Below, one piece after another: positions 52,861-62,108 of a stretch of 64,000 nucleotides of DNA. The stretch is from an uncultured Faecalicatena sp. GTDB taxonomy: Bacteria; Bacillota; Clostridia; Lachnospirales; Lachnospiraceae. The position numbers were made by a program, and so were the translations under genes. The stretch spans positions 62,001 through 126,000 of the forward strand of contig CAOKHZ010000001.1 in assembly GCA_948468385.1 (NCBI GenBank), in the 5' to 3' direction. Each line of letters opens with the position of its first letter. The stretch's first letter is position 1. Under the pieces are notes generated by a model that saw only the letters and a list, made by a program, of their open reading frames with translations, ran no database searches and was not told the origin of the DNA.

Positions 52861-52870
52861 GATTAAAATA

Positions 52871-52887
52871 AATCAATGAATTTGATT
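52871..52887. promoter_or_regulatory. Inverted repeat upstream of leuA-araC, candidate operator
   Basis: AATCAA (52871-52876) and TTGATT (52882-52887) around TGAAT, extended imperfectly by A/T on both sides. It is the clearest dyad in the 120-bp leader. I find no strong -35/-10 pair here; TAGATT (52899)-17-TAGTAT (52922) is the best weak candidate, which would suit an activated promoter. Confidence 0.4.
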
Positions 52888-52980
52888 AAATTCACCACTA
52901 GATTAATTCTGCTATATGTGCTAGTATAGGAGAGGATAAAATAAGACAACCAACTTGATAAAATATAAGGAGATGCTATC

Positions 52981-54981
52981 ATGAAAAATTTTGAAAAATA
53001 TGAGAGATCCTATTTTATGCCGCCCGAACCTTGTTATGACTGGGTGAAGAAGGATTATATCGACAAGCCGCCCATTTGGTGCAGCGTGGATTTGCGGGAT
53101 GGAAACCAGGCCTTGATTGAGCCGATGAGCCTGGAAGAAAAGGTGGAGTTTTTTAAGTTGCTTGTTGATGTCGGATTCAAAGAAATCGAGGTCGGTTTTC
53201 CCGCCGCTTCGGAGACGGAGTACCAGTTCATGCGTACCCTGATCGAGCAGGACATGATACCGGACGACGTGACGGTGCAGGTGTTGACGCAGGCTCGTGA
53301 ACACATCATCAAAAAGACGTTCGAGGCGGTAAAGGGAGCGCCACATGCGGTTATACATGTATACAATTCCACTTCCGTCGCGCAGCGCGAGCAAGTGTTC
53401 AAGAAGGACAAGGCGCAGGTGAAGCAGATTGCCGTTGACGGGGCAAAGCTGTTAAAGGAACTGGCCGAGCAGACCGAGGGAAATTTTACGTTCCAGTATA
53501 GCCCGGAGAGCTTTCCGGGGACGGAAGTCGAGTACGCGCTTGACGTGTGCAACGCCGTACTTGACATATGGAAGCCGACGGCGGACAAAAAGGCCATCAT
53601 CAACCTGCCGACCACCGTGGAAATTGCCATGCCGCACGTGTTTGCCAGTCAGGTGGAGTATTTTAACAAACATTTACTGTATCGTGACAGCGTGATTCTC
53701 TGTCTGCATCCGCACAATGACCGAGGTTCGGGCGTCAGTGACGCGGAGCTTGGCATTTTGGCCGGCGCGGACCGTATTGAGGGGACGTTGTTTGGGAACG
53801 GCGAGCGCACCGGAAACGTGGACATCATTACGTTGGCGATGAACATGTTCTCCCATGGCGTGGATCCGAAATTGGATTTTTCCAATATGACGGACATTTG
53901 TGAAGTTTATGAAAGACTGACCCGCATGAAAGTCTCCCCGCGCCAGCCTTATGGCGGGGAGCTGGTGTTTACCGCGTTTTCCGGTTCCCATCAGGACGCG
54001 ATTGCCAAAGGAATGGCCTGGAGGGAGGAAGGAAAGAGCGAAAAATGGACGGTTCCATATTTGCCAATCGATCCCAAAGACGTGGGAAGGCGCTATGATT
54101 CGGACGTGATCCGCATCAACAGCCAGTCTGGAAAAGGCGGCGTGAATTATATTCTGAAACAGAATTATGGCATCAGCCTTCCGGAAAAAATGCGCGAGGA
54201 AGTCGGTTACCTGGTTAAGGACGTGTCCGACAAGGCGCACAAGGAATTAAGTCCCGAACTGGTATACCAAATTTTCGAGGATCATTACATTACCGCCAAG
54301 TCGGTGTTTACGATTGATGAGTGCCATTTTAAGCAGGAGGACGGCATCGTGGCCGCGGCCACGGTAAGCCACGCGGGCAACAGGCACGTCATCACGGGGG
54401 TCGGAAACGGTCGTCTGGACGCGGTCAGCAACGCCCTGAAGCATTATTTTGACATCAGCTATGAACTGGCCGTGTACGAGGAGCATTCTTTGACGCGCGG
54501 GTCTTCTTCCAAAGCGGTGGCATACGTGGGCGTGAACTGTAACCAGAAGAAATACTGGGGCGTAGGCATTGACGCGGACATTATCAAGGCATCCATCGCG
54601 GCACTCGAGGTGGCGGTGAACAAAATTGACGAAGTGAAGGGCGCGGCCGTCGGCAAGGACGCGAGGCTTCTGGAAATCACGAATTATATTCACGAAAATT
54701 ACAAAACGGTGACGCTCGACGACCTTTCGGAAAAATTTTTCCTCTCCAAGCCGTACATCTCTAAATATATCAAGGAGAAGTCCGGCATGACGTTTGGCGA
54801 CATCGTGCAGAAGATTCGCTTAAAGAAGGCAAGGGCGATGTTAAAGAGTGGCAACGCCAGTGTGGAGAGCATTGCCGATTCGGTCGGATACCAGAACGTG
54901 GAGCATTTTAACCGGCTGTTTAAGCGGGCCTACCAGATGACCCCGATACAGTTTCGGAACCAGGAAAATAAAAGGAACTGA
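52981..54981 (+). CDS. leuA: 2-isopropylmalate synthase fused to an AraC-type DNA-binding domain
   Basis: A 666-residue chimera. Residues 1-555 are LeuA of the long type: DLRDGNQ (37-43), the metal-binding HPHNDRG (243-249), [14 protein letters not shown], and the C-terminal LeuA dimer/leucine-sensing domain ([43 protein letters not shown]). These residues catalyse condensation of acetyl-CoA with 2-oxoisovalerate, the first step of leucine synthesis. Residues 561-666 are a complete AraC/XylS domain: [20 protein letters not shown], then [22 protein letters not shown] and MTPIQFR. The join is in one uninterrupted frame without a frameshift. Ribosome site AAGGAG. No other leu genes lie in the window. 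Its regulatory role is inferred. Confidence 0.93.
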
Positions 54982-56859: not shown

Positions 56860-58296
56860 ATGAGCTACAATGCAACAAAAAACCCGGCAGGCAGGAGAAT
56901 TGCCACACTGCTTGACGCGGGCAGCTTTGTTGAAATCGGCGGCGCGGTTACCGCGAGAAGCACGGATTTCAACTTGCGGGCAACGGATACTCCGTCTGAC
57001 GGCGTCATTACCGGATACGGAGTAATCGACGGGAATCTTGTGTATGTTTACAGCCAGGACGCGACCGTGTTAAAGGGAAGCGTCGGCGAGATGCATGCAA
57101 AAAAGATTGTGAACATCTACGACATGGCGATGAAGATGGGGGCACCAGTCATCGGCTTGGTGGATTGTGCGGGACTGAGATTGCAGGAGGCGACGGACGC
57201 GTTGGAAGCTTTCGGAAGCCTTTATCAGAAGCAGGCGTTGGCTTCCGGCGTGATTCCGCAGATTACGGCGATTTTCGGAACATGTGGCGGTGGCCTGGCG
57301 ATTGTTCCGGGACTTACCGATTTCACGTTCATGGAAAGCGCGGGCGGCAAGTTGTTCGTGAATTCCCCGAACGCGCTTGAGGGCAACGAGATGTCCAAGT
57401 GTGACACGTCGAGCGCGAAGTACCAGAGCGAGACCTCCGGTTTGGTGGATGCCATTGGTACGGAGGAAGAGATTCTTTCCCAGATTCGTTCCCTCGTCTG
57501 CATGATTCCGGCGAACAACGAGGACGACCTCTCTTATGCCGAGTGTGAGGACGATTTGAACCGTGCGTGCGAGACGATCGCGAACGCGGCGGAAGACACC
57601 GGCATTGCCTTGGCGGAGATTTCTGATGGCCATGTGTTTTTTGAGACGAAGAAGAACTATGGCAAGGAGATGGCGACCGGGCTGATTCGCCTAAACGGCA
57701 TGACGGTCGGCGCGATTGCCAATCGTTCCAAGATTTACGATGCCGAGGGAAATGCGGAAGAACTTGGCACGGTATTGACGGTGGACGGATGCAAGAAGGC
57801 CACGGACTTTATCAATTTCTGCGACGCGTTCGGCATCCCGGTTCTGACGCTGACGAACGTGACCGGATACGAGGCTACCAAGGCTGCAGAGAAGGACATG
57901 GCGAAGAGCGTGGCCAGGATGACCTACGCTTTCGCAAATGCAACCGTTCCAAAGGTGAACGTAATCGTTGGTAAGGCTTACGGCAGTGCTTATGTGGCGA
58001 TGAACAGCAAGTCCGTCGGCGCGGACATGGTATATGCGTGGCCGGATGCGGAGATTGGCATGATGGATGCCACGATGGCGGCCAAGATCATGTATGCGGA
58101 TTCTGACGCGCAGACGATGAAGGAAAAGGCGGCAGAGTACAAGGAACTGCAATCGAGTCCGGCTTCGGCGGCCAGAAGGGGCTACGTGGATGCCATCATC
58201 GAACCGGTGGACACGAGAAAATACGTGATTGGGGCATTCGAGATGCTCTTCACGAAAAGAGAGAACCGTCCGGACAAGAAGCACGGTACGGTTTAG
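56860..58296 (+). CDS. Acyl-CoA carboxyltransferase subunit (MmdA / 12S type)
   Basis: A 478-residue crotonase-fold carboxyltransferase, the subunit that moves CO2 between biotin and an acyl-CoA (methylmalonyl-, malonyl- or glutaconyl-CoA). Two halves each contain an oxyanion-hole region: IFGTCGGGLAIVPG in the first, and VGKAYGSAYVAMNS in the second, with WPDAEIGMM. First gene of a five-gene operon with oadG, biotin carrier, oadB and oadA homologues. It is shorter than P. freudenreichii 12S or V. parvula MmdA (roughly 510-525 residues). The acyl-CoA cannot be decided from sequence. Confidence 0.9.
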   Translation: MSYNATKNPAGRRIATLLDAGSFVEIGGAVTARSTDFNLRATDTPSDGVITGYGVIDGNLVYVYSQDATVLKGSVGEMHAKKIVNIYDMAMKMGAPVIGLVDCAGLRLQEATDALEAFGSLYQKQALASGVIPQITAIFGTCGGGLAIVPGLTDFTFMESAGGKLFVNSPNALEGNEMSKCDTSSAKYQSETSGLVDAIGTEEEILSQIRSLVCMIPANNEDDLSYAECEDDLNRACETIANAAEDTGIALAEISDGHVFFETKKNYGKEMATGLIRLNGMTVGAIANRSKIYDAEGNAEELGTVLTVDGCKKATDFINFCDAFGIPVLTLTNVTGYEATKAAEKDMAKSVARMTYAFANATVPKVNVIVGKAYGSAYVAMNSKSVGADMVYAWPDAEIGMMDATMAAKIMYADSDAQTMKEKAAEYKELQSSPASAARRGYVDAIIEPVDTRKYVIGAFEMLFTKRENRPDKKHGTV

Positions 58297-59492: not shown

Positions 59493-60644
59493 ATGGAATA
59501 TATTTCAAATACATTAGGAAACCTCATCCAGCAAACGGCGTTTCTGAACCTGACGGTCGGAAACTTGCTGATGATTGCTGTCGCATGTTTTTTCCTATAT
59601 TTAGCAATCCGACACGGATTTGAGCCACTTTTGCTCGTCCCGATTGCGTTCGGCATGCTGCTGGTGAATATTTACCCGGACATCATGATGCATGCCGAGG
59701 ATTCGTCAAACGGAATCGGCGGACTTCTGTATTACTTTTTCATATTGGATGAGTGGGCGATTCTGCCGTCCCTGATTTTCATGGGGGTTGGCGCGATGAC
59801 GGACTTCGGCCCGTTGATTGCCAATCCAAAGAGTTTCCTGCTCGGCGCGTCGGCGCAATTTGGCATTTTTGCCGCTTACCTTGGCGCGATGGCGATGGGA
59901 TTCTCCGACAAGGCTGCGGCGGCCATCTCCATCATCGGTGGCGCGGACGGCCCGACTTCCATTTTCTTGGCGGGAAAGCTGTCCCAGACGGGACTGATGG
60001 GGCCGATTGCCGTGGCGGCATACTCGTACATGGCGTTGGTGCCGATTATCCAACCGCCAATTATGAAGCTATTGACCACGGAGAAAGAGCGTAAGATTAA
60101 GATGGAGCAGTTGCGGCCGGTTTCCAAACTGGAGCGTATCCTCTTCCCCATCGTGGTTACCATCGTGGTATGTATGATTCTCCCGACCACGGCACCGCTT
60201 GTCGGCATGCTGATGCTCGGTAACTTGTTCCGCGAGAGCGGCGTGGTAAGGCAGTTGCAGGAGACGGCTTCCAACGCGTTGATGTACATCGTCGTCATCT
60301 TGTTGGGAACCAGCGTGGGCGCGACGACCAGCGCGGAAGCATTCCTTACATGGGATACGATAAAAATCGTGGCTCTCGGACTGATTGCGTTTGCATTTGG
60401 TACGGCGGCCGGTGTTCTTTTCGGAAAGCTGATGTGCAAGGCAACCGGTGGCAAGGTAAATCCGCTGATTGGTTCCGCCGGCGTCTCGGCAGTGCCAATG
60501 GCGGCCAGAGTATCGCAGAAGGTCGGTGCGGAGGCGGATCCGACGAACTTCTTGCTGATGCATGCCATGGGACCGAACGTGGCGGGCGTTATTGGTACGG
60601 CGGTTGCGGCCGGAACATTTATGGCAATTTTTGGCGTGAAGTAA
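59493..60644 (+). CDS. Sodium ion-translocating decarboxylase beta subunit
   Basis: A 383-residue integral membrane protein with about nine hydrophobic helices. It decarboxylates carboxybiotin and exports Na+. The signature GGADGPTSIFLAGKLS is in a re-entrant segment, and PLIGSAGVSAVPMAARVSQ and MHAMGPNVAGVIGTAVAAG near the end are conserved. Orthologous to OadB/MmdB/GcdB. ATG 59493 follows AGGAGG. Confidence 0.95.
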   Translation: MEYISNTLGNLIQQTAFLNLTVGNLLMIAVACFFLYLAIRHGFEPLLLVPIAFGMLLVNIYPDIMMHAEDSSNGIGGLLYYFFILDEWAILPSLIFMGVGAMTDFGPLIANPKSFLLGASAQFGIFAAYLGAMAMGFSDKAAAAISIIGGADGPTSIFLAGKLSQTGLMGPIAVAAYSYMALVPIIQPPIMKLLTTEKERKIKMEQLRPVSKLERILFPIVVTIVVCMILPTTAPLVGMLMLGNLFRESGVVRQLQETASNALMYIVVILLGTSVGATTSAEAFLTWDTIKIVALGLIAFAFGTAAGVLFGKLMCKATGGKVNPLIGSAGVSAVPMAARVSQKVGAEADPTNFLLMHAMGPNVAGVIGTAVAAGTFMAIFGVK

Positions 60645-60692
60645 AATTACCCCGCAGCGAGCCATGGGGAATAATTATGGAGGAACAGATAA

Positions 60693-62108
60693 ATGGCAGA
60701 AATAGTGAAAAAACCAGTTAAGATTACAGAGACCATCCTGCGTGACGCGCACCAGTCCCTGATTGCCACCAGAATGACGACGGAACAGATGTTGCCCATC
60801 GTGGACAAGATGGACAAGGTCGGCTACCATGCGGTGGAGTGTTGGGGTGGCGCGACGTTTGACGCCTCCTTGCGTTTTTTGAAGGAAGATCCGTGGGAAC
60901 GTCTTCGCAAGTTCAAGGATGGATTTAAGAATACCAAGCTGCAGATGCTTTTCCGCGGCCAGAATATCTTGGGTTACCGCCCGTATGCGGACGACGTGGT
61001 AGAGTACTTCGTACAGAAATCCGTGGCGAACGGAATCGACATCATCCGTATTTTTGACTGCTTAAACGATATCCGCAACCTGCAGACGGCGGTAAGCGCG
61101 GCCAACAAGGAAGGCGCGCACGCCCAGGTGGCGATGTCCTTTACTCTGGGAGACGCTTACACGATGGAATACTGGATGGATTTGGCAAAGAGAATTGAAG
61201 ACATGGGCGCGGGTTCCATCTGTGTCAAGGACATGGCAGGCCTCCTTTGCCCATATCAGGCGACGGATCTTGTTACGGCCTTGAAAGAGGCGGTAAAGAT
61301 TCCGATTGAGATGCATACACATTACACTTCCGGCGTTGCGTCCATGACGTATTTGAAGTCTGTTGAAGCCGGTGCGGACATCATTGACACAGCCATGTCA
61401 CCGTTTGCGCTTGGTACTTCGCAGCCGGCAACGGAAGTAATGGTGGAGACGTTTAAGGGAACGCCATATGACACGGGACTCGACCAGAACCTGTTATCCG
61501 AAATTGCGGATTATTTCCGTCCGATTCGTGACCAGGCGTTGGAGAGCGGCCTTCTTAACCCGAAGAACATGGGTGTCAACATCAAGACCTTGTTGTACCA
61601 GGTACCGGGCGGCATGCTTTCCAACTTGACTTCCCAGTTGGCGGAGCAGGGCGCGGCAGACAAGTTTTACGACGTGCTCGAGGAAGTTCCGCGCGTGCGC
61701 AAGGACTTGGGCGAACCGCCGCTTGTTACCCCGTCCTCCCAGATTGTCGGTACGCAGGCAGTGTTCAACGTACTGATGGGAGAGCGTTACAAGATGGCGA
61801 CCAAGGAGACGAAGGACATCTTGTCCGGAAAATATGGCGCAACCGTGAAGCCGTTTGACCCGGAGGTTCAGAAAAAGGTCATCGGTGAAGATGCGGAAGT
61901 CATCACTTGTCGTCCGGCGGATTTAATCGAAAACGAGCTGGATACCCTGCGCAAGGAATGCGAGCAGTATATGCAGCAAGACGAGGACGTGTTGTCCTAC
62001 GCATTGTTCCCGCAGGTGGCAACGGACTTCTTCAAATATCGTGAAGCGCAGCAGACGAAAGTCGACGCGACAGTCGCGGACACGGAAAACGGGGCTTACC
62101 CGGTATAA
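60693..62108 (+). CDS. Oxaloacetate decarboxylase alpha / transcarboxylase 5S-type subunit, no biotin domain
   Basis: A 471-residue TIM-barrel carboxyltransferase for pyruvate/oxaloacetate. Motifs are ETILRDAHQSLIATRM near the N-terminus, FRGQNILGYRPY, ICVKDMAGLL and metal ligands H208 and H210 in EMHTHYTSGVASM. The PYC_OADA domain follows (GLLNPKNMGVNIKTLLYQVPGGMLSNL). The C-terminal biotinyl domain of OadA (to about 590 residues) is absent; the sequence ends soon after the helical domain, and the separate carrier at 59101 replaces it. Last gene of the operon. Confidence 0.93.
   Translation: MAEIVKKPVKITETILRDAHQSLIATRMTTEQMLPIVDKMDKVGYHAVECWGGATFDASLRFLKEDPWERLRKFKDGFKNTKLQMLFRGQNILGYRPYADDVVEYFVQKSVANGIDIIRIFDCLNDIRNLQTAVSAANKEGAHAQVAMSFTLGDAYTMEYWMDLAKRIEDMGAGSICVKDMAGLLCPYQATDLVTALKEAVKIPIEMHTHYTSGVASMTYLKSVEAGADIIDTAMSPFALGTSQPATEVMVETFKGTPYDTGLDQNLLSEIADYFRPIRDQALESGLLNPKNMGVNIKTLLYQVPGGMLSNLTSQLAEQGAADKFYDVLEEVPRVRKDLGEPPLVTPSSQIVGTQAVFNVLMGERYKMATKETKDILSGKYGATVKPFDPEVQKKVIGEDAEVITCRPADLIENELDTLRKECEQYMQQDEDVLSYALFPQVATDFFKYREAQQTKVDATVADTENGAYPV

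Follow-up and report, generated by a model that had tools for sequence, protein, structure and literature searches.

A 2-isopropylmalate synthase with an AraC-type DNA-binding tail that probably regulates its own gene

The window analysed here (the whole 64,000-nucleotide stretch of DNA from an uncultured Faecalicatena sp.) contains a gene whose product is confirmed to hold a complete 2-isopropylmalate synthase (LeuA) and an intact AraC-type double helix-turn-helix (HTH) in one protein. A conserved 37-bp element lies upstream of the fused gene at a rigid distance from its promoter. The element co-occurs with the HTH and mostly occurs once per genome, which makes it very probable that the enzyme regulates its own synthesis. 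Our preferred reading, which we consider probable, is that LeuA serves as an AraC-type autoregulator acting at the leuA promoter, so that one protein is both an enzyme of the leucine pathway and the transcription factor for the gene encoding it.

The fused gene and its distribution

The gene (positions 52981–54981, plus strand) is one open frame of 666 amino acids, so the single LeuA and AraC frame proposed by the first-pass annotation is indeed present, and all its domains score above the Pfam cut-offs. The enzyme part consists of the HMGL-like catalytic domain (residues 32–308, positions 53074–53904), IPMS_D2 (residues 327–393, 53959–54159) and the LeuA_dimer leucine-regulatory domain (residues 423–549, 54247–54627), all on the plus strand and above the gathering cut-offs. 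A poorly conserved linker (residues 550–565, 54628–54675, plus strand) leads to the AraC-type double HTH (residues 566–661, 54676–54963, plus strand), in which HTH_18 matches residues 582–661 with 71.4 bits (cut-off 33.6) and HTH_AraC matches residues 621–660 with 45.4 bits (cut-off 26.6). The protein scores 807.8 bits against the NCBIfam model NF002991 for 2-isopropylmalate synthase (cut-off 455), and 673.1 bits against TIGR00970 (leuA_yeast), just under the cut-off of 697.4. The motifs LRDGNQ, SPES, HPHNDRG and GNGERTGN, which we take to be the catalytic motifs of LeuA, show little or no variation across an alignment of 55 fused proteins. The leucine-inhibited LeuA of the Mycobacterium tuberculosis type (PDB 1sr9) aligns with residues 26–518 through its catalytic, post-catalytic and regulatory domains; it has no DNA-binding domain, whereas in the window protein some 100 residues of AraC-type HTH follow, and the likeness to solved AraC-type structures begins at about residue 560–566. 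A PF00682 search and reading of the frames revealed no second LeuA-type gene in the window's genome. Three other frames match PF00682; they were read as two aldolase-type proteins and an apparent carboxylase/decarboxylase subunit (window 60693–62108).

The fusion is widespread in the family. Among the family genomes sampled (396), 365 contain a LeuA match at E 1e-100 or better, and in at least 95 of those 365 the frame runs on through the HTH. In a set of 299 phylum-wide genomes, LeuA matches at or below E 1e-150 occur in 32; four of these carry the fusion, including one from outside the family. The named loci were limited to the best 80 of 321, a choice that accounts for all of them being fused; they include Mediterraneibacter, Claveliimonas, Muricomes, Butyrivibrio, Sporomusa and Pelosinus, and the fused proteins of the last two genera show 73–75% identity. 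One fused protein (L079) is truncated at residue 639 by the end of its contig. Many gut bacteria have a first enzyme of leucine synthesis with a gene-regulator tail.

Over 105 distinct fused proteins, the median dN/dS is 0.012 for the HTH, 0.021 for the catalytic domain, 0.027 for the leucine domain and 0.126 for the linker (pairs share sequences, and saturated pairs were excluded). The HTH of fused LeuA is under strong purifying selection, and in the window protein, a candidate trigger enzyme (an enzyme that also controls gene expression), both the enzyme part and the HTH part are intact and belong to domains under purifying selection. On a tree built from 111 LeuA domains, 7 changes account for the fused or split state, compared with 30.8 in shuffles; many of its branches are unsupported. 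This tree and a second one of 123 rows were made by a quick method, and close Mediterraneibacter copies were thinned. The rows of Sporomusa and Pelosinus are placed inside those of Lachnospiraceae in the 111-row tree, which suggests that the fused leuA was transferred, and several unfused rows are nested within the fused group, which suggests losses of the HTH.

Such losses are the one point in favour of a vestigial HTH or an accidental fusion, since a domain lost in several nested lineages is dispensable over time, but a median dN/dS of 0.012 over 105 distinct proteins is opposed to this, and fused genes in complete chromosomes (e.g. AP025573.1 and NZ_AP024845.1) are opposed to an assembly error; we find any of these accounts scarcely credible. 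The first-pass annotation would have counted absence of the fusion from every other genome against its reading, and at least 95 of 396 family genomes, as well as Sporomusa and Pelosinus, do have it. Together with the 105 distinct proteins and the selection on the HTH, these genomes rule out an assembly error or artefact. The LeuA-HTH fusion is real and old.

The 37-bp element, its promoter and the T-box leader

The upstream DNA of fused leuA loci has in common an AT-rich element of 37 bp with the consensus TTAAAATAnATCAAnnAAAATGATTAAATTTnnCACT, which was found at 93 of 97 fused loci (L009–L025 and L039–L118). In the window, element 1, the proposed operator of LeuA-HTH, lies at 52863–52899 on the plus strand (model R1, E 5.5e-8; PWM score 45.2), followed 19 bp further on, as counted in the promoter comparison below, by an extended −10 of the TGnTAGTAT type (52917–52928, plus strand) and by a ribosome-binding site AGGAG read from the sequence (52968–52972, plus strand). 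A PWM score of at least 15 is reached within 1000 nt of leuA at 91 of the 97 loci. Two others (L089 at about 4962 and L090 at about 4960) have a strong element about 1.04 kb upstream of the fused leuA, farther than usual; the upstream scans reached 1000 nt, so both are tallied as element-less in the T-box and second-copy classes, in the comparison of fused or split with unfused upstream regions and in the pairs test below. Since the PWM was trained on fused loci, independent tests matter. Among 92 promoters examined, 86 distinct ones have an extended −10 (TGnTAnnWT), and in 84 of these exactly 19 bp separate it from the end of the element; the best −35 at 16–18 bp matches at most four of six positions. 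The symmetry of the element is mixed: there is a direct repeat at 22 bp (identity 0.54 vs 0.36 in shuffled sequences), and an inverted ATCA-TGAT core (0.61).

In many fused loci there is a second copy, which spans from just past the −10 to the ribosome-binding site. The two copies are 73 bp apart in 46 of 53 promoters; in this comparison and in the class counts, second copies were called by a short pattern. The window's element 2 (52936–52972, plus strand) is a degenerate copy between the −10 and the ribosome-binding site; the corresponding copies of its clade relatives have PWM scores of 8–16, and the window's own copy scores only −7.7, so its assignment rests on the alignment with these relatives. 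The classes were drawn up for 142 of 150 loci, with repeated N-termini and short upstream regions left out and with the T-box called by sequence pattern. Among the 104 fused loci, 52 have the element and a second copy without a T-box, 23 have the element and a T-box without a second copy, 17 have the element alone, three have a weak one and nine (L089 and L090 among them) have none. The 38 unfused or split loci comprise 29 with a T-box and no element, seven with neither, and two split loci, one with a strong element (L119) and one with a weak element (L127). When 15 loci were searched with Rfam, a T-box was found in seven (three of three unfused and four of 12 fused loci), and none in the leuA region of the window (L009). 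In the window's clade, the T-box is absent and a degenerate second copy of the element is present.

The genus of the window also has a genome (G005, locus L030) with an unfused leuA that is preceded by a T-box leader and a 6S RNA, without the element. In this genome leuC lies about 3.4 kb from leuA on the same contig, and the unfused leuA is probably a replaced one.

These arrangements bear on whether the protein would activate or repress its promoter. A pure autorepressor would act as a homeostatic brake: its binding to the element or elements would serve solely to shut off the leuA promoter, whose extended −10 would work unaided. An extended −10 is able to function lacking a good −35, and the second copy, which runs from the −10 towards the ribosome-binding site in 52 loci, is in a repressing position; both points speak for such a brake. 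However, the universal part is element 1, at a fixed 19 bp upstream of the −10, and a site upstream of the −10 at such spacing is typical of activators. Furthermore, the 23 fused loci with a T-box and 17 others have element 1 without any second copy. We thus regard pure autorepression as rather unlikely, and activation from element 1 is the reading that we prefer.

Co-occurrence of the element with the HTH and its near-uniqueness in genomes

Counting an R1 match at leuA as one of E 0.002 or better on the right strand and within 1,200 bp, 69 of 95 fused genomes among the matches listed have one, while any match at all is present in three of the 301 others (Fisher p 3.7e-51 for at least 95 fused genomes against 301 others, kinship ignored). 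The three exceptions are G092, in which leuA and the HTH are split, G399, in which the contig ends inside leuA (79% identical over residues 1–296), and G337, in which the match is weak. Likewise, an element score of 10 or more is found in 65 of 76 fused or split upstream regions and in none of the 47 unfused ones. At leuA of the remaining 26 of the 95 fused genomes, R1 finds no match; eight of these genomes have a weaker copy (PWM 11–25), G010 has a copy that is displaced by a single base, and others have nothing clear.

The carriers of the fusion and the element are related. An independent-pairs test on supported branches gave four pairs, on average 3.4–3.5 with and 0 against (p 0.125); corrected for kinship in this way, the association has the expected direction and is short of significance, with too few pairs.

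The element could instead belong to a separately encoded regulator of leuA in this clade, in which case the HTH tail would, for example, bind elsewhere or stabilise the enzyme. This would agree with a co-occurrence that is partly due to shared ancestry, for which the pairs test reaches only p 0.125, and with some fused genes being without the element. It is at odds with the unfused leuA genes nested in the fused group, which lack the element, with G005 from the window's own genus, where an unfused leuA has a T-box and no element, and with the element accompanying the fusion into Sporomusa and Pelosinus, where it is nearly the sole strong site. We consider a separate regulator improbable and return to regulation by LeuA-HTH itself.

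Two split loci are worth recording. In G092 (L119), leuA and an AraC-type HTH are two overlapping frames (122–466 and 456–2150) with the element still upstream, which may reflect a genuine split, a frameshift or an error in sequencing. In G105 (L127), an unfused leuA with a weak element upstream is followed directly by an HTH stretch in another frame, 42% identical to that of the window.

Within genomes, the element is nearly unique. In the window's genome, element 1 is the sole R1 match below E 0.3, the next being at E 0.33, and its leuB (PWM −25) and leuC (PWM −46) are without the element. Each of the 13 R1 matches below E 1e-4 in 61 related genomes comes from a different genome and precedes a fused leuA, and 10 named genomes, four of which are Sporomusa or Pelosinus, have one R1 match each below E 1e-5, again at the fused leuA. 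The PWM gave a similar picture when both strands of 118 loci were scanned (2,158,148 positions): 90 of the 92 hits scoring 30 or more are within 1000 nt upstream of leuA and two are just beyond, and all 28 hits scoring 8–30 are in leuA leaders, 21 of them as second copies. Thus, judged from these sites, the target of LeuA-HTH would be mostly its own gene. The first-pass annotation proposed a second role for the enzyme as a transcription factor, and this role has good support from an upstream element that co-occurs with the HTH, keeps a rigid distance to the −10 and is mostly unique.

Four R1 matches besides that of G337 do not lie at leuA. Three are element copies about 75–106 bp upstream of leuB in G327 (L161, 981–1017) and of leuC in G427 (L162, 989–1025) and G215 (L163, 1007–1043), the latter two from one genus; they are a lineage-specific extension of the element to other leucine genes. 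The fourth, in G079, precedes a PspA-like frame, and the weak site in G337 is inside another frame, and neither was accepted as a site of the leucine pathway. A wider leucine regulon in the window's genus was also rejected, as the leuB and leuC stretches examined score −23 or lower with the PWM.

Proposed mechanism and comparison with known systems

In the model that we propose, the AraC-type domains of the LeuA dimer, two per dimer, would bind the 37-bp element 1, and the bound pair would lie next to RNA polymerase at a promoter whose extended −10 is good and whose −35 is poor, leading to activation. AraC-type proteins commonly contact RNA polymerase and activate from a site at that position. 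With a conserved leucine domain immediately before the HTH, leucine is the obvious candidate signal; this domain is likely the sensor, which would report leucine to the HTH beside it, so that a single leucine-binding event could set the activity of the enzyme as well as its synthesis. Switching of DNA binding by leucine or by substrate state, as put forward in the first-pass annotation, would be in keeping with the intact regulatory domain. In the window's clade, the weaker element 2, located 73 bp (about seven helical turns) downstream, might let excess or leucine-bound protein shut the promoter, either by occupancy of element 2 alone or by looping, in place of the T-box of most unfused leuA genes. 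That the leucine binding which inhibits catalysis also moves the HTH pair from the activating site to a blocked or looped two-site state, and that protein autoregulation replaced the T-box at leuA, is a tentative proposal that could well be wrong; our confidence in this leucine-switched reading is lower because the window's own second copy scores so poorly.

The T-box is an RNA mechanism that reads tRNA charging. A leucine T-box leader (Rfam RF00230) is found on the leuA of unfused relatives and of some fused ones and is absent from the window's leader; T-box leaders here are Rfam or pattern matches for which the leucine specificity of the tRNA is assumed. Several proteins resemble LeuA-HTH in part. 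AraC uses two sites with DNA looping, a site adjoining the −35 region and a cupin sensor; LeuA-HTH resembles it in the AraC-type HTH, in a proposed site by the −35 region and, for the window's clade, in a putative second one in phase, whereas its proposed sensor is the leucine domain of the enzyme and its element 2 is downstream, weak and putative. In Ada of Escherichia coli, too, one polypeptide holds an enzymatic activity and an AraC-type HTH, and Ada governs the gene that encodes it, but it is a DNA-repair methyltransferase switched by self-methylation, whereas LeuA-HTH is a metabolite-feedback enzyme. PutA and BirA have DNA-binding folds that differ from the AraC type, and they are other enzymes, unconnected with leucine, whereas the window protein is AraC-type and belongs to the leucine pathway. 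In PMC6978683, both are described as enzymes that also repress the genes of their own pathway, and their likeness to LeuA-HTH lies in an enzyme and a DNA-binding regulator in one protein that acts on its own pathway. PMC5107987 describes a stand-alone AraC regulator whose targets include leuA2. A search of the PMC full-text literature, covering mainly titles and the starts of abstracts, with most subscription journals outside its scope, found no report of a LeuA-AraC protein with an operator. Enzymes that control the genes of their own pathway are already known; new here is the 37-bp element, the proposed operator of the LeuA-AraC protein.

If the model is true, a central amino-acid pathway has its feedback inhibition and its gene control joined in one polypeptide, and one sensor sets both the activity and the amount of the enzyme. 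The natural series of unfused leuA with a T-box, fused leuA with a T-box, fused leuA with two sites and split leuA would trace a path from RNA-based to protein-based control in common gut bacteria, and the rigid proposed operator offers a ready test site.

For the genomic neighbourhood, the names were taken from reading frames. The upstream neighbours of leuA are presumably scpA, scpB and a D-Ala-D-Ala carboxypeptidase, and the downstream ones presumably a carboxyltransferase and a methyl-accepting chemotaxis protein, so that leuA seems to have no partner genes beside it. HTH_18 (AraC-type) matches number 107 in the 4.25 Mb of the window's genome. Downstream of leuA, at window 56860–58296 and 59493–62108, there are carboxyltransferase, membrane decarboxylase-like and carboxylase-like frames, which by reading resemble a sodium-pumping decarboxylase set.
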